From assembly GCA_029557535.1 (NCBI GenBank), contig JAKQII010000013.1:1-64000 (forward strand): a stretch of DNA of 64,000 nt, given 5' to 3'. This document shows, one piece after another, positions 47,947 to 61,487 of this stretch; position 1 is the first letter of the stretch, and every line of letters starts with the position of its first letter. The notes under the pieces are model-generated. The model was not told the DNA's origin. It made no database searches and saw only the letters and a list, made by a program, of their open reading frames with translations. Source of the stretch: Acidobacteriota bacterium. Lineage in GTDB: Bacteria > Acidobacteriota > Blastocatellia > Pyrinomonadales > Pyrinomonadaceae. The position numbers and the translations under genes are program-made.

Positions 47947-50331
47947 TTAGGGATTAGGCGGAGCCAGATAATTGAGATCATAAACCGTAGCCACTCCCGC
48001 GTCAGGCATGTGAAAGGTCACCAACCCTCCTCCGCCAATTGTTTGATTGGCCAGGTCAACATTATAACTCGCCGCGGTCGTGTACTTAATACCATAGGTT
48101 CCGGGTGGCAGGCCTTCAACGACCACCGTTCCACTAGTCGTCGCTTTTATGGGAACAACAAATGTTCCGTTAGCATTCTAAAAAGGCAATCCATCAAATG
48201 AAGCTGAAGAGTTCGTAACGCCTTTCATAACTGCGCCGGGACGAATAAACTTCATATACTGTCGTAAATATTTTGTGCGGCTTCCAATGTTTACTGTGTA
48301 GCTAGGATTCGAGCCGTTGACGTAAAAATACTGGAATCCGTTGTCGGCCTCAGGAAAGCCCAATGCAAATTGTTCCCATGCCGAGACTTTGCCAATTTTC
48401 AGGTCACTGTGCAAATCGAAATATGTCCCGCCGCCGTATTCCGACATTGCGGTCCTTTTGCCGTCGGCTTCTGCCGTATTTCTTAAAAGCTGAAGGTCAG
48501 GATCCGTAATGTCAACGTATCTGTGATAACCGATTTCATCAATATACCCCGCCGCTGCGGCATTGGCCGACTTCAAACTAAGATAAAAGGTCCGGGCTGA
48601 AGGTCCTGAAACAGTTGCGGGGGCCATTATGTATGGTTTCGCGTAACCCGCTGCGACCAGTCTGTTCCTCGCGGCGACAATCATCGCGGCCATCTCGCTC
48701 GGAGATACGTTTGCGGCGTCGTTGTCCGGTTCAAGAAAAATCTCAAGCGCATTCGGTACAAACCCGTATCTGAGATTGAGATGATTCCAGGTCGCTAGGA
48801 TCAGTTCACCATATTCGGCGGGGTTATCAACGTGAAGTTGATTAAGGGTTGAAAAATGGACATACGTGAGTACAAGGAAAAGGGTTTCTCCCCGTGCCTG
48901 CAGTTTTTGCCGCATCGGAAGAACGACTTTGTCGATCTGTCGATCAAGCATCGCCCACTTGAACCCAGAGGGATTAATCGAATTCGGGTCCGCATTGTCA
49001 TTGATCGGAACCCTCCAATTGTCACGAACAGCCTGCCACGTCGGATTGGGCGCATTCTGACCGACCGCAAGAAAAGACCCATAATAGTCCGCTGAATTTT
49101 CCGCAATTCCCGAATGCAAGCCAACACGAACACGGTTGATTCCCAACTCCACATTCGCGTCGAGTACCGTGTTATTCCAATAGTCAACGGACCCGATCAG
49201 CTCGATGATGCCGGTATCACCCGATGCTTGCCAACCCGACATAGTTTGATAGCTGACGTTCGGAACGATGGTAATTCGATTGCCCGTTGTTGGAGAAGCG
49301 GGGGAGTTAAGAGTAACAACTGCCAAGGACGCCGTCCGCGAATTGCCAGATGAATCAAACGATCTAGCCTGAAGCAGATGTTTCCCATTGGAAAGCGTCG
49401 TTGTATTCCAGTTGAATGTGATCAAGGCGTCCGGGATGTTAGGTACTACGTTGCGAGTGCTCAACAACGAACCGTCGACATAGAGTTCAACTCTGTCAAT
49501 TCCAAGATTGTCGCTCGACTGTACGGTCACAGGCACTTGATTGGAAACCCGGACATAGTGTTTTAATCCTTGGATGTTCACCGTCGGTGCAATGTTATCC
49601 GCCGGTGTGGCGTTGACCAATGAAGCGGCTTGCAGAGTGACATTGCCCCAGATATTGTGGGCTGTTTGGACGGTCCATTTGACGGTCAGAGTCTGCCCGC
49701 TTGTCCCGGCTTGATAATTCAGTGTGTAAACCGCAACGCTCGTTGCGCTCGTATTGACCAAGCTCGTATCAACATATGTCGGTGCGCTTCCATCACTTAT
49801 TGAGGCTTCCAACTTGCCGGTTGCTGCAGACACTCCAACATAAAGCTTTAGACTCCTTTGAGTCGTATCGGCCGGGACCGTGATTTGAAAGCCATTGTTT
49901 GGTCCGATTGTGTAAACACCCGTGTCAGTAGTGCTGGCTGCCACGGTCGGTGTCCCGTCACTCCAGCTATAAGTACTTGGATTTTCAGTGAATTGCTGAA
50001 TTGTTCCAGTACCGAGCGGCACAAAGTTACTGATTTGTTGAGTGACGCCGCTTCTGTGATTGAAACTATTGGCTCCCGTGAGTCCCCAATGAGCCCAATC
50101 TGCATTTCCTACCGCGGAAAGATCGACCGTGGTTTGCGGGTTTGTTCTACTGCCAATGAGTACCCCAGTAACAGCAGACGCTTTGGATGCACGCACCGGA
50201 AACAAGTTCTGATCATTTACCAAGAAACCAAATCGATTTCCGTCTTGCGCAAGAACCGGAAAAAGCGCAGCCAAAGAAGCGACACATCCGATCAGGCAAG
50301 ACGAGACTAAAGATCGTCTTAAGTAGAACAT
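47947..50331 (-). pseudogene. Secreted GH30-like glycosidase gene with an in-frame amber codon
   Basis: From ATG 50331 (signal peptide ending ALFPVLAQ) the frame runs to TAG at 48178-48180. In the same frame it goes on for 76 more codons (NANGTFVVPIKATTS ... DLNYLAPPNP) to TAA at 47947. Those codons match the C-terminal domain of the paralogue at 37317-38708: PF*NANGTFVV against AFVNADGKYVV, and LPPGTYGIKYTT against VPGGSYGISYTT. Domains in order are: a carbohydrate-binding-like beta region (~25-235), an Ig-like domain with APTVNIQGL and SVELYVDG-like strands (~240-340), then the GH30-like barrel with ALEIFLEPDND (acid/base) and TAMSEYGGG (nucleophile). A product ending at the amber keeps the barrel but lacks most of the last beta domain. 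Confidence 0.8.
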
Positions 50332-50882
50332 AAAGCAGACAGGCACTATTACTTTGTGATTGACTGAAAACACCACACCACCAACTTCCGGACGAGAAAT
50401 TTGTGAGCAATCTCGGAAAGTGATCCGTTTTCAATGACAGGCTGGGAGAGAACCTCCAGATTTCATTGGAACTTATGGCGATATGAAAAGTCAAGACAAA
50501 AAGCGGCACAGGAACAGAGGCCCCCTTTGAAGCAATAGACCAACACTTCAAAAACAGGTCTTGAATATGCGGATGAATCAAACTGCAAGAACCCTGGTCT
50601 TCAAAGAGAAGCCCGGCCTGAAAAGAGGTAGAGTCCGGTTCGGAGTCCCGGTTTAGGCAAGAAAATCAGTACGGATTTTACCGGTGGTGGTGATAAGGAT
50701 TTTCGTTCTTTTCGTAAGTAAGTTTTCGGTTTTCGAATTTGTTTCTTGGTAGCAGTTGCTTTGGAAATGGTGGAAAATGCTCTCAAGTTTGCACGGTTTC
50801 AATAGCCTTCTTTCGTCAAATTCTGAGCGGCAATCGGTCCGCGTAGACGCAGCCTAAGATTGACTGTAACCCAATTCGGCGA
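50332..50882. other. 551-bp intergenic region, nothing assigned
   Basis: Spacer upstream of the GH30-like gene (minus strand) and downstream of the minus-strand glycan operon. No gene is accepted; the short frames are basic and low-complexity. It should hold the promoter of the glycosidase gene and the end of the operon, but I see no clear -35/-10 pair or hairpin with a T run. Confidence 0.4.
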
Positions 50883-51614
50883 TCACCCGTTGCGGTATCG
50901 ATAGAAAGTCTTGATGGCGACGAACCAGTCTCGGAGGCCGATCTTCTTGCCCTCGCCCTTACTTCGCGGAAAGTAACTGATCGGAACCTCCTTTATCGAG
51001 CAGCCTTGCGCCAGGATCTTCGCGGAGATTTCGTGATCCAACTCGAAGCCGTTTGTTTGAAGTTCAAGCGGCTCTATGACCTCTCGCCGGAAGAGCTTGA
51101 GCGCGGTCACGGTATCGGTCAGATACCGCCCGGTGAAGACGACGCCCGCGAAACTCAAAGTCTGACCGCCAATGTAGGCCCGCCACGATTGGCCGCGGTG
51201 CTTTCCGCCAAACAGATTGATCAACTTGCCCCGACCGGGGTATTTGAGATAACGACTGCCGTAAACTGCGCCGCACTCTTCCGTCAGGAGCGCCCTGATC
51301 ATCTGTACATAATCATTCGGGTCATATTCAAGGTCAGCGTCCTGGATGATGAGATAGTCGCCGGTAGCGTGTTTGACCCCCGTTTTGACCGCCCCGCCTT
51401 TTCCCGTATTGCGCCGATGCCGGTGAAGGACGACATTCTCGAATGCACGGACCACATCCGCCGTACAATCGGTTGAACGATCGTCGATAACGATCACTTC
51501 CTTGTCCAAGTCGAACTGAGAAAGTTCCACCGCGAGCACCTTCTCCAGTAATCGCCCGATGAACTTCGATTCGTTATACGCCGGAATAACTATTGTCAGC
51601 TTGCGTCTTTCCAT
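50883..51614 (-). CDS. DPM1-like GT2 glycosyltransferase
   Basis: 243 residues, soluble GT-A fold: LTIVIPAYNESKFIGRLL, EVIVIDDRSTDCTADVV, RRNTGKGGAVKTGVKHA, LIIQDADLEYDPNDY (DXD), VYGSRYL and LTDTVTALKLFRREVI. It probably charges polyprenyl phosphate with a sugar for the GT-C proteins of this operon. Its 5' end overlaps the nucleotidyltransferase gene by 41 bp, an unusually long overlap. Last gene of the minus-strand operon. Its C-terminal half is recognisably related to the C-terminal domain of the fusion protein at 53007. Confidence 0.9.
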   Translation of the reverse strand: MERRKLTIVIPAYNESKFIGRLLEKVLAVELSQFDLDKEVIVIDDRSTDCTADVVRAFENVVLHRHRRNTGKGGAVKTGVKHATGDYLIIQDADLEYDPNDYVQMIRALLTEECGAVYGSRYLKYPGRGKLINLFGGKHRGQSWRAYIGGQTLSFAGVVFTGRYLTDTVTALKLFRREVIEPLELQTNGFELDHEISAKILAQGCSIKEVPISYFPRSKGEGKKIGLRDWFVAIKTFYRYRNG

Positions 51615-52350
51615 TCAGATAACTCTCGATCAAAGCGACGTCGGCCCGATCATTGATACCAACCGATTCGATTTCGGTCCTGACCGAAAACGTCATCACA
51701 TCGGCTTTCCCGGAAAGCCAGACGATGAAGGGAAGAAAATTTCGTTCCTCTGTCCTGTTCCCGACACCCGCCTCCGAAGCGAATCGGGGAAGCAAGTCAA
51801 AATAGGCCTTCCTCGAAAGCGAAAACAGACCGACATCGCCTTCGCCCCGTTCGGGCATTGCGTCGCCCTCACGTCGCTGGAGCAGCCCGACGATCTCGTT
51901 GCTTCGGTTGCGAACCCAGTGGATGTATGGCCGCCCCTTAACGACCGTCGGCATTACGACCCCGCTACTGTCCTCCGACAAAACCGACAATCGTTGAACC
52001 GTTTGCGTTTGAACCGCAATCTGATCGCACCAAGTGATCCAGACCTGGTCGGCTTCCTCATTCAAGAACTCGCCCAGACGGGTTTGCGGAATCAGGATCG
52101 CGTCAAGCATTCCGGTCGGCGTTTCCTGGATTTCAAACTCGATCGGCAGATCAAACTTCTCACAATGGCTTCTCACGGCTGCGACATGGGCCGGGTTCAG
52201 CACCAACACGAAGCGGTCAACGAACGGCGCATAAAGGCGAAACAGGTAATCGATCATTGCCGTCCCGTTGATCGGGAATAGTAGCTTCGGGATCTCCGTC
52301 TGCAGTCTCGAACCTAAACCCGCCGCCGGAACCAAGAGCACTCGCTTCAT
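51574..52350 (-). CDS. Sugar-phosphate nucleotidyltransferase-like protein
   Basis: 258 residues with the N-terminal signature VLLVPAAGLGSRLQTEIPKL then LFPINGTAMIDYLF, and the metal-site region VWITWCDQIAV, as in GlmU-like or GT-A nucleotidyltransferases. The closing part (SVRTEIESVGINDRADV) resembles IspD/GlmU-type enzymes. It should make an NDP-sugar or similar activated alcohol; the substrate cannot be read. It overlaps the HAD phosphatase gene upstream by 4 bp (ATGA) and the GT2 downstream by 41 bp, so the three are coupled. Confidence 0.82.
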   Translation of the reverse strand: MKRVLLVPAAGLGSRLQTEIPKLLFPINGTAMIDYLFRLYAPFVDRFVLVLNPAHVAAVRSHCEKFDLPIEFEIQETPTGMLDAILIPQTRLGEFLNEEADQVWITWCDQIAVQTQTVQRLSVLSEDSSGVVMPTVVKGRPYIHWVRNRSNEIVGLLQRREGDAMPERGEGDVGLFSLSRKAYFDLLPRFASEAGVGNRTEERNFLPFIVWLSGKADVMTFSVRTEIESVGINDRADVALIESYLNGKTQADNSYSGV

Positions 52351-53006
52351 AACTCGCCCTTTTCCAACGCTGCCAGCATGGTGCTAATGTCAGGAAAAGC
52401 GCCGATAAACCGCCGGTGATCGATCCTTGCTCCGCTTCGGACCGAAACCGAATACGCCTCTGCCGCAACCGCTGCTTCAAGTCCGGCGTCGCTGTCCTCG
52501 ACAATCAACGTTCGTTCCGCTGACGCGCCTGATCGCTCGATCGCAACGCTGTAAATGTCGGGCGCCGGCTTTCCGGTCATTACGTCGTCGCCGGTCACGA
52601 CAACTGAAAACACCGCGTCCCAGCCAAAACGGCGCAACACCATCTCGGCTGTCTTTCGGGAAGCTCCGGTACCGAGCGCCAGGAGTTGGCCGGCACCCGT
52701 CAGGCGCTGCAGGCACTCGGCACTATCATCAAAGGCGATTTGAGCACTGTTCAAGTGCGTCCGCGCAAGCTCTTGTTTGAATTGCACCCATTCGCCAAAG
52801 CGAGCCGGGTCGACATTGATCCTGGCCCCGTATTCCTCTACCACCTCTCGGGTTTTCCGTCCGGCGATCGACTCATAGCGCGGCCCTGCAATGTCCATCA
52901 ACTTCCACAACTCATTGTAGGCGAGTTCGTGGCAAGGCGACGTGTCCACCAAAACGCCGTCCAAATCGAAGATCACAAGTTCGAAATCCATCACCGGTCG
53001 CCGCAT
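52347..53006 (-). CDS. HAD-superfamily phosphatase/mutase (PGM/Gph-like)
   Basis: 219 residues with motif I LVIFDLDGVLVDTS (D14, D16), a helical cap, motif II region LLALGTGASRKTAEM, motif III lysine in TGDDVMTGKPAPDIY, and motif IV VEDSDAGLEAAVAA. This is the beta-phosphoglucomutase/phosphoglycolate phosphatase subfamily. It may supply or remove a sugar phosphate for the nucleotidyltransferase gene that overlaps its end. Its ATG follows the stop of the YvcK-GT fusion gene with no gap. Confidence 0.9.
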   Translation of the reverse strand: MRRPVMDFELVIFDLDGVLVDTSPCHELAYNELWKLMDIAGPRYESIAGRKTREVVEEYGARINVDPARFGEWVQFKQELARTHLNSAQIAFDDSAECLQRLTGAGQLLALGTGASRKTAEMVLRRFGWDAVFSVVVTGDDVMTGKPAPDIYSVAIERSGASAERTLIVEDSDAGLEAAVAAEAYSVSVRSGARIDHRRFIGAFPDISTMLAALEKGEL

Positions 53007-55106
53007 TCAATGTCTGGCTGCCAGACTGTCGGACCTTGAGTCAGACGAACGATCCGTAGAAGTCTCCGAACTGAGTTCACGTCGTCGTTTCCTTGGTCGA
53101 CCGCCAAATGCCGTAAGCAAGGACTGAAGCCCGCCGAGAATCGTCGTCCGCTTAACTTTGGCTGGCGACAGCGGGAAGAACTGAACCGGGGTCTCGAGCA
53201 GGTCTGCCTTATCTTCCAACAGCGCGCACAGTAGTTTCTGATTGAAGTTCGCGGCATCCAGTTCCGTCTCGTCGCTGAGCAGGTATTCCGTTCTAACCGC
53301 CCTGACCGCCGACAGAGTGTCCGAAACATAACGGCCATAGCGTAGCAGGTACAACAAACTCAGGAGGTGGCTGCCGACAAAGCTGACGGCTCCTAGCAGG
53401 AGGTTGTTACGATACCGGAACTTGTACGATTCGAGGATGTCCTTGACCGACAGGCGGCGGCTTCCCCAGACCGCATCCAGCCTCGGGTTTGTCAGCAATG
53501 AAGCAACATTGACGATTTCCTCTCCCTTGTACATTGCTGACGAATCGAACAGAACGACATAATCGAAGCCTTGCCCCGACACTGAATACCGAAGGGCCTC
53601 GGTCACTGATTTTCCATCGGTTCTGACATTGCGAACTTTGAACGGCAAGAGATCTGCAAACGTCGAATCAAGAGAATTCTCGCTGGAATAATAGACCTCG
53701 ATCGAGAGCGGAAGTTCGGAGATGCCGCCCCGGACCGCTTCCAGCATCGTTTGCGTGATCTTGTCGAGCGAATCGGTGTCAAGCAGCCAAACCGCGATTT
53801 TCAGGCCTTTGCCCCGACTTAGGATCGCATTTATGAAAGGAAGGACGATCTTCTCAGCGTCGTGGGTTCCGGTCGTACCTTCTTCGTAATTGCCGATCCG
53901 AACAAGCCGCGGGTCTTCAAGGCTCTCCAGTCTGCCGAGCGGTACGTAAGGTTTGTCGTCACTGGTTTGATGATGATCGTTGAGGAGATAATGGGTGATC
54001 AGACACGGCGTCGGGATCGTTTTCGTGTTTCGATCTTTCAAGTAGTAGACGGCCCGCTCGATAATGTCGACCGCGCTGCTGTCGGGTATTTCGGCGTCCT
54101 CTTGCAAGTTCGTGACAAGGAGTTTCACGGCCCTCAGATTCTTTGCGATCGCCTCCCCCAAACCCGGCGTCAGATACGACGGGAAAAGGCTCGAATGCTG
54201 CGTTCCGGGCGAATAGATAATCAGATCCGCCTCCGCGATTCGATCGAGCAGTCTCGGGTTTACCAGCGGCACGCGGGTGCGTTGTGCGATCAGGCGGCGA
54301 ATTTCCTCGTTCGTGGCGGTGACGGCCCGGGATTCTTCCTCGGGCGTCAGGATCCGGTCAAACAGGTAAATGTCCTTGATGTGGTTGCGCCGTGTGGAGT
54401 CGACAATATCTGCTTCTGTTGAGAGTAGTTGGTTCTCTTGACTCAGGGCCACAAGGCACGCATTCTCGCCATCGGTAACGTTTTCAATAAGACCTTCAGG
54501 CAAACCCAACAGCGAGCAGTAGTCTGTGATGGCATCATTGAAGTTACGCTTTGTTTCCAGGAAACACCCGGCAAAGACGATGTTTCCAAGCGCGCAATCG
54601 CCGAACGAAAATGCCCGGTCCTTGGCTAAAAATTCGCTCTCAAAACGACTGAGACGCGCACCCACGTTCCGTTTCGCCCGTTCGTCAAGGCGTTCCAGTT
54701 TTTCCTGCAGTTTGATCTGCCAATCAGCTTCCGGCGCTTCCGGTCGGCCGGACAGGAGCCGCAGAACGGCAAGCCCTTCGTCACTCGAGCATTTGTCGGG
54801 CAAGCGAATATCAAGCAGATCGATTAATTCGCTCTGGCAGGTTGCGAGTTCGCGCGCCATCCGGGACGCGTTCTTCCGAAAATCCGAAGGGCCAAGGCTG
54901 TCGCCGAGGAACCGACGAATCTCGCCCGTCGATTTGCCGTCATCATAGCCGTTGACTGCAAGCGTCAGTTTGACTTGAGGGTGATTGATGAGTTGCCGCG
55001 ACAACACGCGGGAGCCTCTTCCGCCCGAAAACAGGACGACCTTTACGACAGTCTGCCCTTGATTCGGCGCTCCTGCAAGCGATGGTTTTGGTACTGGACT
55101 TTTCAC
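53007..55106 (-). CDS. YvcK/CofD-like domain fused to a degenerate GT2-like domain
   Basis: 699 residues from a GTG at 55106, placed by AAAGGAG about 8 bp upstream; a GTG at 55148 would overlap the previous gene. Residues ~20-400 match the YvcK/CofD fold: LFSGGRGSRVLSRQL, VNGYDDGKSTGEIRRFLG, FSFGDCALGNIVFAG, YSPGTQHSSLFPSYLTPGL. YvcK proteins bind UDP-sugars; CofD transfers a phospholactyl group. Residues ~425-660 parallel the GT2 encoded at 50883: RYVSDTLSAVRAVRTEYL against RYLTDTVTALKLFRREVI, and a shared late block ETPVQFFPLS against EVPISYFPRS. The DXD site is LFDSSAMY instead of IQDADLEY, so catalysis as a glycosyltransferase is doubtful. A UDP-sugar sensor controlling the operon's enzymes is one possibility. 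Confidence 0.82.
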   Translation of the reverse strand: MKSPVPKPSLAGAPNQGQTVVKVVLFSGGRGSRVLSRQLINHPQVKLTLAVNGYDDGKSTGEIRRFLGDSLGPSDFRKNASRMARELATCQSELIDLLDIRLPDKCSSDEGLAVLRLLSGRPEAPEADWQIKLQEKLERLDERAKRNVGARLSRFESEFLAKDRAFSFGDCALGNIVFAGCFLETKRNFNDAITDYCSLLGLPEGLIENVTDGENACLVALSQENQLLSTEADIVDSTRRNHIKDIYLFDRILTPEEESRAVTATNEEIRRLIAQRTRVPLVNPRLLDRIAEADLIIYSPGTQHSSLFPSYLTPGLGEAIAKNLRAVKLLVTNLQEDAEIPDSSAVDIIERAVYYLKDRNTKTIPTPCLITHYLLNDHHQTSDDKPYVPLGRLESLEDPRLVRIGNYEEGTTGTHDAEKIVLPFINAILSRGKGLKIAVWLLDTDSLDKITQTMLEAVRGGISELPLSIEVYYSSENSLDSTFADLLPFKVRNVRTDGKSVTEALRYSVSGQGFDYVVLFDSSAMYKGEEIVNVASLLTNPRLDAVWGSRRLSVKDILESYKFRYRNNLLLGAVSFVGSHLLSLLYLLRYGRYVSDTLSAVRAVRTEYLLSDETELDAANFNQKLLCALLEDKADLLETPVQFFPLSPAKVKRTTILGGLQSLLTAFGGRPRKRRRELSSETSTDRSSDSRSDSLAARH

Positions 55107-55110
55107 ATCA

Positions 55111-56403
55111 TCAACTCCTTTCCGCCGGGCGCGCCCAGTGCGGGCCACGAAAGCTTCGAAAGAACTCGCGCCGGTAGATCAACAGGAACATAAGCATCAG
55201 CCACAGCGGACTGCTCTTGAGCAATCCGACGGCAATCAATTCGGGTACCGTATCGAAGCTCAAATGGGCGTTGACGAAGGAAATCAGAACCGTATTCTGA
55301 CCGACGGACGCCGCAAAGATCGACGCTAAGAGAAAACGGGCTCCGGTCGATAGTGTAAGACTAATTGCCAAAAGATACGCAAGCGGGAGGAACAATAGCG
55401 CAAGGTAGTGTTCCCACACCGTCTGGGAGATCATCAGGCAGAACGTGACGGACATCAGGATATCGAACTGGCGCCGGGCCGCCGTCGTCCAGTTCTCTGA
55501 GCGGCTCAGCCTAAACATTACACCGAACAGGAAAACAAACAGGACCTTCAAGACGATCACCGATGCCCCGACAATCGGCCCGCCGATCGGCGGATCCGCC
55601 AGGAGCTTGAGATTCTCTCCGGTGACAAATAGCGAGCTGTTATAAAGCCAAGGATAGCCTTTTGTCATACCTTGAGACATCAAGACAAGAAACTTCACGT
55701 GGACGTCCCATCCAAGTATCAGAAGGGAAGCTACGGCAAATGCCGCAAAAACTGCAACTGCCTCGCGAACGAACTTCCATCCCGAAACCAAGCAGAGTGG
55801 AAACAGCACGAAGACAAATGCCGGCTTGATCAGCACGGCAAGGGCGATACATACCGCCGACAACCGGAATCGTTCTTTCGAGTGGCAAAACAACGCGATC
55901 GTAAAAAGCAGAAAAACCGTTGGGGTGGTCTGGCCGCCGATTCGATAGATCGCCCAAAACGGCTGATAAAGCAAGACGGCTCCGGTGAAGAGCGCGGCGA
56001 ACCTCCAAGGATCCGGGATTTCGTTCCCGGAAAAGAACCAGCGGTAATTACGGAAAAGCAGCCAAAGAGCGATCAAACACGCCGCCGCGTTCTGAACCTT
56101 GAAAACAAGCAGCGCTCTGTCCGGAGAAAAAAGGCTCAGAGGGGCATAAAGCAGCGCAGATATCGGAGCTCCCCAAAAAGACAGCTTCCCCTGCGGCGGC
56201 TCTCCGGCGATCAGGCTTTCGGACTCGTACAGATCAGCAATCTGCCAAACCGCGACCCGCCGGCCCGTGTCGTAGAAGTTGGCGAAATCCCATCCCAGGC
56301 CCGCCGGAACCACTGTCCCCACGAGTGTGGCGAATCCGATCAGGATCAGGAAAACGATCGTTATCGGGCGATATCGGGATGCGTTGTCTCGGCTTTGTGT
56401 CAT
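55111..56403 (-). CDS. GT87-family (DUF2029) mannosyltransferase-like membrane protein
   Basis: 430 residues, about ten TM segments. The first loop holds GWDFANFYDTGRRVAVW, with the Asp expected for GT87 polyprenyl-phosphate-mannose transferases such as PimE. Later blocks are IYRIGGQTTPTVFLLF, VLIKPAFVFVLFPLCL and SQTVWEHYLALLFLPLAY. It likely adds a hexose from a polyprenyl-phosphate donor on the periplasmic side. It lies 4 bp before the YvcK-fusion start and 55 bp after the GT-C gene upstream. Confidence 0.87.
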   Translation of the reverse strand: MTQSRDNASRYRPITIVFLILIGFATLVGTVVPAGLGWDFANFYDTGRRVAVWQIADLYESESLIAGEPPQGKLSFWGAPISALLYAPLSLFSPDRALLVFKVQNAAACLIALWLLFRNYRWFFSGNEIPDPWRFAALFTGAVLLYQPFWAIYRIGGQTTPTVFLLFTIALFCHSKERFRLSAVCIALAVLIKPAFVFVLFPLCLVSGWKFVREAVAVFAAFAVASLLILGWDVHVKFLVLMSQGMTKGYPWLYNSSLFVTGENLKLLADPPIGGPIVGASVIVLKVLFVFLFGVMFRLSRSENWTTAARRQFDILMSVTFCLMISQTVWEHYLALLFLPLAYLLAISLTLSTGARFLLASIFAASVGQNTVLISFVNAHLSFDTVPELIAVGLLKSSPLWLMLMFLLIYRREFFRSFRGPHWARPAERS

Positions 56404-56458: not shown

Positions 56459-58720
56459 TTATCGGCCGCCCGGCGGCTCGCGTTCGAGCAGGACGTCCGC
56501 TGACACCGGCCCTTCGGCGATTTCGAAACCGGCATTTGTCCTTGACGGGCCGTCGACGATCCAAACGGGACGATCGCGGTAGACTTTCAGTACTTGGTGT
56601 CGCAAGTCAGGATTCTCATCAAATGCGAAGACCGGCGAACCGGCCTGAAGATCGATCGGATTGTAGATCGCAGCCGAAGCAAAGTCCGGAAACCGTTTGC
56701 CCCGAATCAGCACAAGACTCCTGCCGAAATTGTACGTTTTCGCGAGGTCAATGATATCAGGCCTCATCCTCAGGTACCGATGATACTTGTCAATTGCACG
56801 CCACGGAAGGAAATTGACAAGCGCCATCAGAGAGAGCAGCGCGACAGCAATCAAAACTCTCGAACCGGCAAGCGACACGCCTGGTTCGTTCTTTAACCGA
56901 TCAATAAGACATTCCGCGCCACGTACGCTCAAAACGACTAAGGGGACTATCATCAAAAACCAATAGCGGGCCGCAAAATCCGGACCACCGCTAAACCAGT
57001 AGAAGCAGTGCGCAATGAAAACACCGATCAAAAGCGCGGCCATCAGGAGGTCACTGCGACGCAGCCTCTCTGAGAAGCATAGAAAAATGACGAGAATCAA
57101 CGATCCTGTCGCCCAACCGAAAAGTTCGGTATTGATCGCCGCCGTGTTCAGGTTGGCGTTGATTAACGCTTCAAACGGACTGTGGCCCGGATACGGATCG
57201 ATCGGCCAGCCGGCACCGCGTTCGGGTCCAAAACCCATTGCGTTGCTGTTGACGCCCATATACTTGTCGGCCCAGACCATTATCGGAAACTTGGTCGGAC
57301 TTCCGGTCAGCACATAGTTGTAGCAGAAGATGATCGCACCGACGGTTCCGCAACCCGCGATCCAGGCAGCGATTCCGGGCAACTTCAGTCGGTTGCCTCC
57401 CAGACCGACGACCCAAAGTCCGATCAACACCCCGATGATCGCGCCTTCCAATGGACGAATCAATCCAACCATTCCAACCGCCGCTCCGCTGGCCAACGCC
57501 CAAGAGATGCTGTCGTTCCTTCGGGCCCGGAGCATCGCAACCGCGGCGGCCAACCCAAACGCCAACGACGAGGTATGGGTCATAAAGCTCATTCCAACCA
57601 GAATGAACCACGGCGACGCGGTCAAGAGGATGGCCGTCAACAGCGCGGTCCGGCGATCGTACAGTTCCTGAACCAATACGTAAGCCAATATCACGGAAAT
57701 TCCGGTCAAGACAGGGTTCACAAGCCAGTCAGCGTTGAGGAACACTCCGATCGCCAGCACAAGCGGCCAGCCGACCGGCGGAGTGGCGTACCAACGCGTG
57801 GCGTCGAAATCGAACAGATCCAGATTGAATGCGGGAAGTACCGAAGGGGTCGGCATCCAAAGAGCACCGGTTGCCAGGTAGCGGGCATGGTAAAGATAAG
57901 CGACTTCATCCCCAAGGTGCGGGTGGCGTTCGTATGAAACAAAACTCAGAAGCGCCGACAGCGCCGCTGCCAGTATTCCAAGCAGGATGACGAGTAACTT
58001 GGTCCGGCTGATTCCGAAAGTTCCCGTACCGTTCAGCCTGGCCGCGAAGCTTCTCAAAGAGGCGAGTACGGAATTCGGAAGGCTCCAGGCGACGAGCAGG
58101 ATATTGATCAAATTCAAGGTTTGGACGAAAGTTGCGAAAATGACCTCTTGGACGTAGTAGCCGGTGTCGCGCGAAACCGTCGTGCCGGTCAGAACAAAAG
58201 CCAACGCGATCGCGCTTAACTGCCAGAACCTGAAATTTCGGGTAAGCCATTTGAACACCAACGCAAATCGGTTCCGGAACCCGACTGATACGGCAATCGT
58301 CTGAAATGCCAGGGTCGCCAGCAACCACGGCGAATCCGAAATCAAAGTACCGACGAGCCGATAATGCGCGTATCGAATCTCAATCCCGGCAACGATCATC
58401 TGCAATGCCACTGCCTGTCCAACCACGCCCAATGCCAACCAAGCGGCGGCAGTCTTCCATTTTGTGGAAACGCCGAATCCAAGAACGCCCAACGCGACAG
58501 CAATCGCGATAGGAAGACAGACCGTGCCGCGAAGGGCCCCTTCGGCATCGCGAAAATACGGTGCCAATAATCCCCAAGCGGCACTGCCCGCTGCGGCAGA
58601 CCAAAGCAACAACCGAAACGGGCCAACTGAAAACGAAACGTCGAGCGCCCCATCGAGGGTTCCGAGTTCCGACGATGACTCGTCGCCGACTCGACTGTTC
58701 CGATCCGTGTTACTTCTCAT
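56459..58720 (-). CDS. Large GT-C (GT39-like) glycosyltransferase
   Basis: 753 residues from ATG 58720 (AAGG upstream; a GTG at 58747 has no site). More than a dozen TM segments. After five or six helices comes the loop ERHPHLGDEVAYLYHARYLA, where D-E is the GT39 catalytic-type pair, then WYATPPVGWPLVLAIGVF. A ~90-residue soluble C-terminal end follows. The extra N-terminal helices make it longer than ordinary GT39 members. Probably uses a polyprenyl-phosphate sugar. Confidence 0.87.
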   Translation of the reverse strand: MRSNTDRNSRVGDESSSELGTLDGALDVSFSVGPFRLLLWSAAAGSAAWGLLAPYFRDAEGALRGTVCLPIAIAVALGVLGFGVSTKWKTAAAWLALGVVGQAVALQMIVAGIEIRYAHYRLVGTLISDSPWLLATLAFQTIAVSVGFRNRFALVFKWLTRNFRFWQLSAIALAFVLTGTTVSRDTGYYVQEVIFATFVQTLNLINILLVAWSLPNSVLASLRSFAARLNGTGTFGISRTKLLVILLGILAAALSALLSFVSYERHPHLGDEVAYLYHARYLATGALWMPTPSVLPAFNLDLFDFDATRWYATPPVGWPLVLAIGVFLNADWLVNPVLTGISVILAYVLVQELYDRRTALLTAILLTASPWFILVGMSFMTHTSSLAFGLAAAVAMLRARRNDSISWALASGAAVGMVGLIRPLEGAIIGVLIGLWVVGLGGNRLKLPGIAAWIAGCGTVGAIIFCYNYVLTGSPTKFPIMVWADKYMGVNSNAMGFGPERGAGWPIDPYPGHSPFEALINANLNTAAINTELFGWATGSLILVIFLCFSERLRRSDLLMAALLIGVFIAHCFYWFSGGPDFAARYWFLMIVPLVVLSVRGAECLIDRLKNEPGVSLAGSRVLIAVALLSLMALVNFLPWRAIDKYHRYLRMRPDIIDLAKTYNFGRSLVLIRGKRFPDFASAAIYNPIDLQAGSPVFAFDENPDLRHQVLKVYRDRPVWIVDGPSRTNAGFEIAEGPVSADVLLEREPPGGR

Positions 58721-58750
58721 TCGAACCTTGGCTCGCCTCCGGGGCACAAA

Positions 58751-60460
58751 TCAATGGGCTACTTGATAGACGAGGATCTTGAAGCCGGACACCGGCTCGT
58801 CCCGGTAGACAAGCCGGAATTCCGGCGGCAGACCGCTCTCGTCCGGCGGAAAGGCGTTGGGCGTCAGCTTCAATCGCCGCTGGCTGAATATCAGATAATC
58901 TACTTTCTTCCGTTTGGCATAATCGAGCACCGTCTGGAGATCTTCATTGGGCAAGAAAAGGTGTCTGCCGCCTGCATAAAACGCTGGTGTCGCGGACACC
59001 GACATTACAACCGGAGGGTCGGCAGCGGTGTCTTTTATCCACAATCCTGCCTGTTTTTCCTCAGTCGGCGAATCCCCAAAAGTCCCGCGTTCATTCAAGC
59101 TGAATACCGATGGCGCAACAAGCGCGATAAGCACGACGACGAGGCAAACCTGGATCGACAACGGTCGGATGCGACGGCTCGTCCTCAGGACCTTAAACAA
59201 CGATTCTGAGGTCCAATCGCCAAACTCAACGATTCCTTTGACGGTCCAGGCGATCAGGATCGGAACCAGCGGATAAACATAACGCAATTCGACGACGGTC
59301 AGGGCATAACCGAGCAGCATGAAGAGAAAAAAAGAAATCAAATACAATTCCCTCGCAGCGCGAAATCGGGTCCACGTTCTGTAGAAGAATCCAAAGATGG
59401 CGAGGAATATGAACGGGTAGGGCAATAATGCGGGCAAATAGTCCCTTAACTGTTTTCGAAACAACGATATTACCCAAGGTATAGTTTCGCTCAGGTCAGT
59501 ACGGAGTTTCGACAAAGTGAACGCGCGCGGAGAAGTTGAATCGGAAACGGGCGTTGGCGGACTTGACTGCGTCGGCGATTCAATTTCATACATATCGCCC
59601 CAGATCCTGTCCTGCATTGTCAATTGCCTGTCGTTGTCGATTTTGAGGAACCCTTCATCAATATCGTCCATTCCGGGAAGGTGCGAATTGACCATGATCT
59701 TTTGGCTAATGGTCAATTGCCCCGTCTTCTTATAGAGGAAAACAACATAGGGCAAAAAGAAGATCGAAAATCCCAAAAGCAGGGTCAAGAGGCCTGCGGC
59801 ATATCGCCGGCCTCCAACTTTTTTCCGAAAGAACCTTGCGACGGATGTTAGAACAAGAAACAACCCGAAAAGGCCAATTGCTTCTGGTTTCGTCAAGTAG
59901 GCGGCTCCCCAGAGAATCCCGGTGATGAAAAACGCCTTTGCCGTTCCATCGCGCAAGGCGATCCAGCCGGTCAGGATCGCGGTGATGAAGATCAGCGAGT
60001 AAACGGATTCGCTCATTACCCAGTTTGACGCTCGCAGCAGCGCCGGATGGATGACGATCAACACAGTTCCCAGCAAAGCCGGTGTTCGACCGTAAAAAGT
60101 GCGGATCAGATAGTACGAAGGCAGAACCAAGAGTGTCCCGGCGACGACCGAGACGAATCTTGCCGCAAACTCGAGGTCGTTAAAGAACAGAGAGGAAATT
60201 CCGACGAGCACCGAATACAGGGGGGACCAGTATCCGCTGATCCCGCCCGCAAGATCGCCCGAGGCCAGCCTCTTGCCGAGAGTGGCATAGTAAACTCCGT
60301 CTCCGTTGATGACCTGATCGGTCGGGAGCGAAACAAATCGAATGACAAAGGCAGCGACGACAGAAGCGAAAAGGACAAGACCTTCGTGCGCATGCGTACG
60401 CCGGAAAGTCCGACTTCGACCCTCATTGAGCGGGTTGCTAGTGGATGGGCCCCGATCCAT
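58751..60460 (-). CDS. GT-C (GT39-like) glycosyltransferase
   Basis: 569 residues from ATG 60460 (GGGGA site upstream; longer frames to 60505 are less likely). About ten TM segments; first loop has LPTDQVINGDGVYYATLGKR, then GISGYWSPLYSVLVGI, where the acidic residue is that of GT39-type enzymes. Other blocks are NWVMSESVYSLIFITAIL, AAYLTKPEAIGLFGLFL, and a soluble C-terminal part from ~430. It starts 23 bp inside the end of the GT2 gene upstream. Confidence 0.87.
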   Translation of the reverse strand: MDRGPSTSNPLNEGRSRTFRRTHAHEGLVLFASVVAAFVIRFVSLPTDQVINGDGVYYATLGKRLASGDLAGGISGYWSPLYSVLVGISSLFFNDLEFAARFVSVVAGTLLVLPSYYLIRTFYGRTPALLGTVLIVIHPALLRASNWVMSESVYSLIFITAILTGWIALRDGTAKAFFITGILWGAAYLTKPEAIGLFGLFLVLTSVARFFRKKVGGRRYAAGLLTLLLGFSIFFLPYVVFLYKKTGQLTISQKIMVNSHLPGMDDIDEGFLKIDNDRQLTMQDRIWGDMYEIESPTQSSPPTPVSDSTSPRAFTLSKLRTDLSETIPWVISLFRKQLRDYLPALLPYPFIFLAIFGFFYRTWTRFRAARELYLISFFLFMLLGYALTVVELRYVYPLVPILIAWTVKGIVEFGDWTSESLFKVLRTSRRIRPLSIQVCLVVVLIALVAPSVFSLNERGTFGDSPTEEKQAGLWIKDTAADPPVVMSVSATPAFYAGGRHLFLPNEDLQTVLDYAKRKKVDYLIFSQRRLKLTPNAFPPDESGLPPEFRLVYRDEPVSGFKILVYQVAH

Positions 60461-61487
60461 TAATTTCTTCCCCTTTGTTGAACATGAGAATTCGCGGAAG
60501 TGCATACCGGAACCAGCTCATGACGAATGTAACCCCGCTGTAAAAAAAGTAGAAAATCAACCATGGAAAGGTCATTAGGGCGAAGAGCATTCCGTTTCTC
60601 GCGGCAAAAAAACGCAATATCTTCCGGTTGAGAATAGCGATTGCGAGCAGGTTGAGGATAGGCACGAACAATAACCAAGGCTTCCACAAGACAAATGGCA
60701 GAATCAACAGCGACAAAGCGACGAAAACCGAGCTCCATCGGTCGCCGGTCTTCAGGTTCATATCGTTTATCATCCCTTGGCTCGTCAGGATCAGCTTTGA
60801 CCAGGGAGCGGCTCGGCAGAAGATCTCCGTTTTCACCAGCGATGTCGCCGTCCATTTCTTCAAGTGCTTCGCTTGAATGTTCCGATCGAGCAGTATGCGG
60901 TATCCGGCGGACTTTAGTCTTAGGCCGAGTTCAATGTCTTCGATCGAGGGAACGGCAAATTTTTCACTATCGAATCCTCCGATCGACGCAAAGACCTCGC
61001 GACGAACCGCACCCAATCCCGCCCAGAACGTAGACGCCTCCGGATTTGAAATCTGATGAACGAAATGATGCTGGAGGTTCTTGTATTGTGAAAGAAAGTT
61101 CTTTTCGGCCGGCGAATCGTCATACGAACCGAACACTGCCGCGATCTTCGGATCACGACGAAACGCATCCACCGCCTTCGATATCGTATCGCTTTTGACA
61201 ACAACATCGGCATCCACGAATAGCAGTATCTCGCCGTTAGCCTTCTTGGCCGCCAGATTCCGTGCCGCGGCCGGGCCCGATTGGCGACGGTCGGACCCGA
61301 TCAACGTCGCACCCTTTCGGCGACTGATTTCCGCGCTGTCGTCCGTTGATCCATCGTCAACGACGATGACCTCGAAGTTTGGGTGATCAGAGTTGAACAG
61401 CGCGTCAAGAGACAGTTCCAGAAACCTGCCTCCGTTAAAGACAGGGACGATCACCGAAACCTCAGGTTGCTTAATTGGATTCGACAC
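60438..61487 (-). CDS. GT2-family glycosyltransferase with C-terminal membrane segments
   Basis: 349 residues: VSVIVPVFNGGRFLELSL, FEVIVVDDGSTDDSAEIS, LFVDADVVVKSDTISKA (DXD), FWAGLGAVRREVFASIGGFD, and PSIEDIELGLRLKSAGYRI (ED motif). About three membrane helices at 260-340. The likely role is sugar addition to a lipid-linked chain. It starts 7 bp after the radical SAM gene and overlaps the GT-C gene that follows by 23 bp. Confidence 0.92.
   Translation of the reverse strand: MSNPIKQPEVSVIVPVFNGGRFLELSLDALFNSDHPNFEVIVVDDGSTDDSAEISRRKGATLIGSDRRQSGPAAARNLAAKKANGEILLFVDADVVVKSDTISKAVDAFRRDPKIAAVFGSYDDSPAEKNFLSQYKNLQHHFVHQISNPEASTFWAGLGAVRREVFASIGGFDSEKFAVPSIEDIELGLRLKSAGYRILLDRNIQAKHLKKWTATSLVKTEIFCRAAPWSKLILTSQGMINDMNLKTGDRWSSVFVALSLLILPFVLWKPWLLFVPILNLLAIAILNRKILRFFAARNGMLFALMTFPWLIFYFFYSGVTFVMSWFRYALPRILMFNKGEEINGSGPIH

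Follow-up and report, generated by a model that had tools for sequence, protein, structure and literature searches.

Whether the YvcK/CofD fold serves as a sensor or as an enzyme is still disputed. Its YvcK/GlmR members (UPF0052) bind UDP-sugars. Residues Y265 and R301 of Bacillus subtilis YvcK are required for UDP-GlcNAc binding (PMC5482804), and Listeria GlmR has been reported to convert UTP and GlcNAc-1-P into UDP-GlcNAc, with a D40A/D41A/N198A mutant being impaired (PMC10128056). Members of the CofD/FbiA type are 2-phospho-L-lactate or PEP transferases, and the metal ligands of FbiA are D45 and D57 (PMC7253369). In Mycoplasma fermentans, a split CofD-family pseudogene adjoins an NDP nucleotidyltransferase gene and a glucofuranan synthase candidate (PMC11658790).

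Here we analyze a gene that joins a CofD/YvcK domain to a GT2-like domain, encoded in a 64,000-nucleotide stretch of an Acidobacteriota genome (the window). Both parts are of known kinds; what is new is their conserved combination, in which the GT2 part of one clade has become a pseudo-GT2. A literature search returned no paper describing a YvcK/CofD-GT2 fusion. The nearest report, that of the M. fermentans locus, is likened to ours by description, a CofD-family gene standing by a nucleotidyltransferase and a glycan synthase, but a GT2 fusion is not reported there (PMC11658790). The fusion probably acts in a lipid-linked glycan pathway, as a hitherto undescribed component. If the reading developed below is true, the fusion offers a clear-cut example of how a GT2 enzyme can become a non-catalytic module, and proteins that bear the motifs survive alongside degenerate ones. 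It also places the YvcK/CofD fold in a short, self-contained cassette, where ligand and partner are directly testable.

The fusion gene and its CofD/YvcK domain

The longest open frame around the fusion (53007-55148, minus strand) comprises 713 codons. The GTG at 55106 is the better start, rather than the frame end at 55148, because an AAGGAG motif stands 8 nt before it (55120-55115); judged by this signal, the protein has 699 residues, and residue numbers refer to this form (713-frame numbers minus 14) unless stated otherwise. The two-domain anatomy is firm, residues ~23-430 forming a complete CofD/YvcK domain and residues ~434-680 a polyprenyl-phosphate-type GT2 fold (Table 1). An AlphaFold2 model of the fusion has moderate confidence (mean pLDDT 69.8, pTM 0.58), with pLDDT values mostly of 80-94 in the CofD core, about 70-88 in the GT2 core, and low values in the linker that make the inter-domain geometry unusable.

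Table 1. The fusion gene, its domains and key residues, and neighboring operon genes in the window
Feature	Coordinates	Strand	Basis or remark
DPM/AglJ-like GT2, paralogue of the fusion C-terminal domain	50883-51614	-	Intact motifs; PF00535 E 9.7e-32
MobA/GlmU-like nucleotidyltransferase	51574-52350	-	PF12804 E 2.9e-15; GlmU models
HAD hydrolase, beta-phosphoglucomutase-like subfamily	52347-53006	-	HAD_2; TIGR02009 E 1.5e-29, below cut-off
CofD/YvcK-pseudoGT2 fusion gene	53007-55106	-	699 aa; Pfam CofD and full-length relatives
Pseudo-GT2 domain	53067-53810	-	Polyprenyl-phosphate GT2 fold without PxxNE, DxGSxD, GKG, DXD
DSS replacing the GT2 DXD, D521-S522-S523	53538-53546	-	Codons 53546-53538
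CofD/YvcK domain	53811-55040	-	Residues 37-446 of the 713 frame; end-to-end YvcK alignment, Foldseek 2hzb
Asp of LGPSD, D75	54882-54884	-	PGD Asp of YvcK; 24/24 fusions, 6/6 YvcKs
DD of NGYDDG, D55-D56	54939-54944	-	Catalytic D40/D41 of Listeria GlmR; 24/24 fusions
GT87 (GT-C type) membrane glycosyltransferase	55111-56403	-	Directly upstream; PF09594 E 2.7e-14
PMT_2-type GT-C membrane protein	56459-58747	-	Pfam PMT_2
PMT_2-type GT-C membrane protein	58751-60505	-	Pfam PMT_2

A Pfam scan of the fusion protein returned CofD (PF01933) as its only match (65.9 bits against a cut-off of 30, E 4.4e-18, residues 37-392 of the 713 frame), and apart from this generic model no curated Pfam or NCBIfam family scored above its cut-off. 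The protein reaches 58.3 bits on the YvcK/GlmR subfamily model TIGR01826, whose threshold is 196. Its N-terminal domain finds its best NCBIfam score, 79 bits, with the GAK-system CofD-like model TIGR04357, but this too lies far under the cut-off of 340, and the GT2 part of the fusion is extra. When the AlphaFold2 model was compared with the PDB by Foldseek, the N-terminal half matched the YvcK crystal structure 2hzb (E 4e-11), and the domain shares its fold with YvcK end to end, being alignable from the N-terminal GG.G down to the C-terminal RH.

The DDG, PxD and GN motifs of YvcK/GlmR, the Asn of its CN motif and the C-terminal His are all kept, and the residues concerned (D40/D41 of GlmR, the PxD Asp, GN, N218 and the His) are present in 24 of 24 fusions. 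The Y265 position is Tyr in 22 of 24 and the R301 position is Arg in 13 of 24, with Thr in the window protein, the alignment being less sure at both places. When FbiA is matched to the fusions by motif through YvcK only, D45 falls on the leading Asp of DDG and D57 on the PxD Asp, and both positions are Asp in every one of the 24. With its putative metal- and diphosphate-binding residues and most of its candidate UDP-sugar-binding positions kept, the CofD domain looks functional, and it is quite probably the functional nucleotide site of the fusion.

The fusions also depart from YvcK/GlmR. They contain an insertion of ~100 aa in addition to the GT2-like domain, carry PGTQxSSLxPSYxT instead of PGSLYTSxxPNL, and their genes belong to a glycan operon instead of neighboring housekeeping genes. 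The position of GlmR T14 holds Arg or Ser, and that of N198 holds Ser in 24 of 24, which leaves the catalytic set D40, D41 and N198 incomplete. Together with the Thr at R301 in the window protein, these substitutions suggest that the ligand may be something other than a UDP-sugar. The window's genome carries a separate housekeeping YvcK beside its glmU gene, and the fusion is therefore not the housekeeping YvcK. The same residues bear on whether the CofD domain might be a dedicated uridyltransferase that, like Listeria GlmR, makes and channels an NDP-sugar, while the GT2-like part serves as a scaffold. The reported UDP-GlcNAc synthesis by GlmR, the impaired triple mutant (PMC10128056) and the invariance of D40/D41 in the fusions would favor such a role, but the uniform Ser at N198 and the nucleotidyltransferase already present in the operon make it improbable.

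The GT2-like domain and its two clades

No Pfam model matched the C-terminal ~250 residues of the window fusion, and NCBIfam gave AglJ only, at E 0.0025. The fusion protein nevertheless finds the operon GT2 by tblastn (E 5.9e-9, 25% identity), and profiles of the window-clade C-terminal part align by hhalign with the operon GT2s at 99.1% probability (E 1.5e-18, 220 columns) and with the GT domains of more divergent fusions at 99.2%. Foldseek matched the C-terminal half of the model to the GT2 enzymes ArnC, DPMS and GpgS (E 1e-6 to 1e-5, ArnC at the top with 1.2e-6), the best fold matches being the lipid-phosphate glycosyltransferases ArnC, DPMS and GtrB. A model of a Pelagibacteraceae relative gave the same two sets of matches, to YvcK and to GT2, more strongly, and in the divergent members each domain passes its Pfam cut-off alone (CofD 97-112 bits, Glycos_transf_2 63-82 bits). 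By profile and by predicted structure, the C-terminal half is a GT-A fold related to GT2.

The preliminary description of this gene had placed a YvcK/CofD domain in the N-terminal half, likened the C-terminal half to the GT2 of the same operon, read DSS at the metal site and regarded the combination, inside a glycan operon, as unfamiliar. Sequence, profiles and fold agree with it on each of these points. It had also considered that the C-terminal region might adopt another fold, or that the fusion might belong to a well-known family; both models show a GT2 fold, and we found no curated family or paper that assigns the fusion a function.

Among 26 fusion loci, 14 are divergent from the window protein, 11 form its own clade, and one, L063, is an outlier excluded from clade statistics owing to its very long branch. 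All GT2 motifs are intact in the operon GT2s. The 14 divergent fusions keep PxLNE/PxLDE, VDGGSxD and GRG/GKG, and have P[S/A/G]D at the DXD, its first Asp replaced by Pro. All 11 window-clade fusions lack PxxNE, VDGGSxD, GKG and DXD, the last being replaced by DSS in six and ESS in five, and retain the acceptor-side GSR, SDT/SDV and ExP. The C-terminal domain thus shares with ArnC, DPM synthase, GtrB and AglJ the fold and the acceptor-half motifs, but in the window clade the donor and metal motifs are gone, and in the divergent clade, too, the DXD is without its first Asp. The loss of DXD given in the preliminary description holds for the 11 window-clade members and not for the family as a whole; the loss of the other donor-side motifs, and the conserved family and cassette, had escaped it. 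The outlier protein (L063:7750-9708, minus strand) combines a CofD domain with a more degenerate GT2-like part in which SGD stands at the DXD site and only SGDGEY, GSR and SDP are recognizable, and its gene still adjoins HAD and nucleotidyltransferase genes.

Sequence divergence follows the same division. The CofD parts of the two clades are 31.5% identical, the GT parts 20.1% (donor half 15.4%, acceptor half 24.0%). Within the clades, the GT part is 52.9% identical in the window clade, where the acceptor half reaches 57% versus 49% for the donor half, and 50.7% identical in the divergent clade. For close window-clade pairs, dN/dS is 0.13-0.19 in the GT part, 0.09-0.18 in the CofD part and 0.06-0.10 in the operon GT2, which implies that the GT part is maintained and not decaying. 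A functionless leftover of gene duplication would account for the lost catalytic motifs; these dN/dS values and 53% identity across phyla contradict such decay, and we regard it as the least credible of the explanations. Taken with the conservation, the ratios suggest that the GT part is kept, under somewhat weaker constraint, and we infer that its task is something other than transferring sugar from a conventional donor site.

Alternatively, the GT part might still transfer sugar, using a donor site that is unusual or works without metal. Purifying selection, the Asp or Glu retained as first residue of the DXD-site triplet and the survival of most GT2 motifs in the divergent clade are consistent with activity. 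Set against them are the joint loss of four donor-side motifs in 11 of 11 window-clade members and the lower identity of the donor half (15%) than of the acceptor half (24%) to the divergent clade, and we consider an active enzyme very unlikely. In a GT2 tree, the window-clade domains form one clade (support 100/99) on a long stem; the tree is unrooted, so duplication of the operon GT2 and an older split both fit the GT2 part of the fusion.

The gene cassette and a proposed role

The GT87, fusion, HAD, nucleotidyltransferase and GT2 genes are consecutive, adjoining genes being separated or overlapping by between a few bases and 41 nt; the HAD gene starts directly after the fusion stop codon and overlaps the nucleotidyltransferase gene by 4 nt. 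Across the 26 loci, the operon GT2 accompanies the fusion in 21 and the nucleotidyltransferase in 22, and the upstream GT87 is kept in L001-L005, L064 and L066. Most loci lacking partners lie at contig ends (L002, L061 and L062 stop at contig borders); at L059, the partners are absent within the stretch examined. Operon GT2s scoring at least 350 bits occur in exactly the seven of 396 sampled acidobacterial genomes that have the full fusion, a score gap inflated by the inclusion of sequences from the tested genomes in the profile, and the next two genomes by score (240 bits) lack cassette genes nearby. The architecture defines a conserved family, accompanied by a cassette of genes that is likewise conserved, and is not a one-off fusion.

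Cassettes of Pseudomonadota, including Pelagibacteraceae, carry an additional SAM methyltransferase and a B12-type radical SAM enzyme. The latter (L008:2845-4332, plus strand; also L053-L058 and L062) scores best with the Sden_1168 P-methyltransferase family, at 152 bits against a cut-off of 575, a weak hint at a phosphorus-containing product. A DUF3095 gene lies divergently next to the fusion in two genomes (L054:622-1797, minus strand; L055:9275-10450, plus strand). In the window, a gene at 48178-50376 (minus strand) stands between two oppositely oriented groups of glycan genes and encodes a secreted-looking protein of 732 aa with a Big_7 bacterial Ig domain and a C-terminal part without assignment.

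What is known of these families suggests a route from the HAD protein and the nucleotidyltransferase to an NDP-sugar, from there to a polyprenyl-phosphate sugar, and on to a glycan built by GT-C enzymes. The HAD protein, as phosphomutase or phosphatase, and the nucleotidyltransferase would make the putative NDP-sugar, the intact operon GT2 would load its sugar onto polyprenyl phosphate, and the GT-C membrane enzymes (GT87, PMT_2) would use the lipid-linked sugar for a glycan. That the pathway is of this polyprenyl-phosphate-sugar type is likely. Within it, the CofD domain would bind the NDP-sugar and a metal and perform chemistry or sensing. The pseudo-GT2, no longer transferring sugar, would hold the lipid acceptor or pair with its active paralogue, with the result that the sugar nucleotide is gated or channeled. 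Our overall reading, to which we give a probability of roughly 0.45, is that the fusion is an NDP-sugar-handling accessory or control component of such a pathway, its pseudo-GT2 docking the GT2 or the lipid. More tentative is the specific proposal that the pseudo-GT2 docks or gates the operon GT2. The cassette would then mark an unrecognized glycan pathway, predicted in soil Acidobacteriota and marine Pelagibacteraceae.

The main rival to an accessory role is phosphotransfer of the CofC/CofD type. The nucleotidyltransferase would make an NDP-activated phospho-compound; the CofD domain would then pass the phospho-compound, with release of NMP, to an acceptor bound by the GT2 part, yielding a phosphodiester-decorated lipid or glycan. 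The fusion belongs to the same Pfam CofD superfamily as CofD/FbiA; a MobA-type nucleotidyltransferase beside a CofD domain resembles the CofC/CofD pair (PMC8764529), the Asp residues matched by motif to the two FbiA metal ligands are invariant, and the HAD, methyltransferase and B12 radical-SAM genes of the Pseudomonadota cassettes point to a small molecule of an unusual kind. However, the domain stands nearer to YvcK than to genuine CofD proteins: it is matched by YvcK structures, and CofD/FbiA are absent among the sequence and PDB matches listed. The NCBIfam model for F420-type CofD gave no match to the fusion, no F420 context was seen around it, CofD itself has no GT2 part, and the nucleotidyltransferase is closer to GlmU and MobA than to CofC. 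Phosphotransfer is, on balance, unlikely. A slightly lower chance still attaches to the proposal that the CofD domain is a new enzyme moving a phospho-linked group from a nucleotide diphosphate to a polyprenyl- or glycan-bound acceptor on the GT2-derived module; if true, CofD chemistry would have been recruited to glycan assembly, in a cassette common to Acidobacteriota, Myxococcota and Pseudomonadota including Pelagibacteraceae.

Distribution and other extended CofD proteins

The first full-length relatives came from Acidobacteriota, one Myxococcota metagenome-assembled genome and Pelagibacteraceae, and the 26 loci span Acidobacteriota, Myxococcota and Pseudomonadota, including Pelagibacteraceae. 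Chance or mis-assembly as the origin of the fusion is ruled out by this number of loci in several phyla. Sampled genomes carry the full fusion in 7 of 396 cases for Acidobacteriota, 11 of 399 for the phylum of the Pelagibacteraceae genome and 2 of 284 for that of the Myxococcota genome (one being the outlier L063), as well as in 2 of 4 for a small phylum; of the genomes sampled from its own family, the window's genome alone carries it. So patchy a distribution suggests horizontal transfer.

Searches of mobile elements returned 62 pattern matches on viral contigs, none confirmed as a fusion relative, and one CofD-only match without the fusion in phages. No plasmid in the search carried the full fusion; the matches there were confined to ordinary GT2s and CofD proteins standing alone. 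YvcK/CofD proteins extended in another way, ~750 aa long, occur at L022, L024 and L029 (acidobacterial genomes G250, G196 and G113); they are lengthened at the N terminus and carry ~290 aa at the C terminus for which the one protein scanned gave no Pfam match. On a Sinorhizobium plasmid (L086:257-7117), a stand-alone YvcK/CofD gene is accompanied by genes for an inositol monophosphatase, two other phosphatases and a Na/Pi cotransporter.
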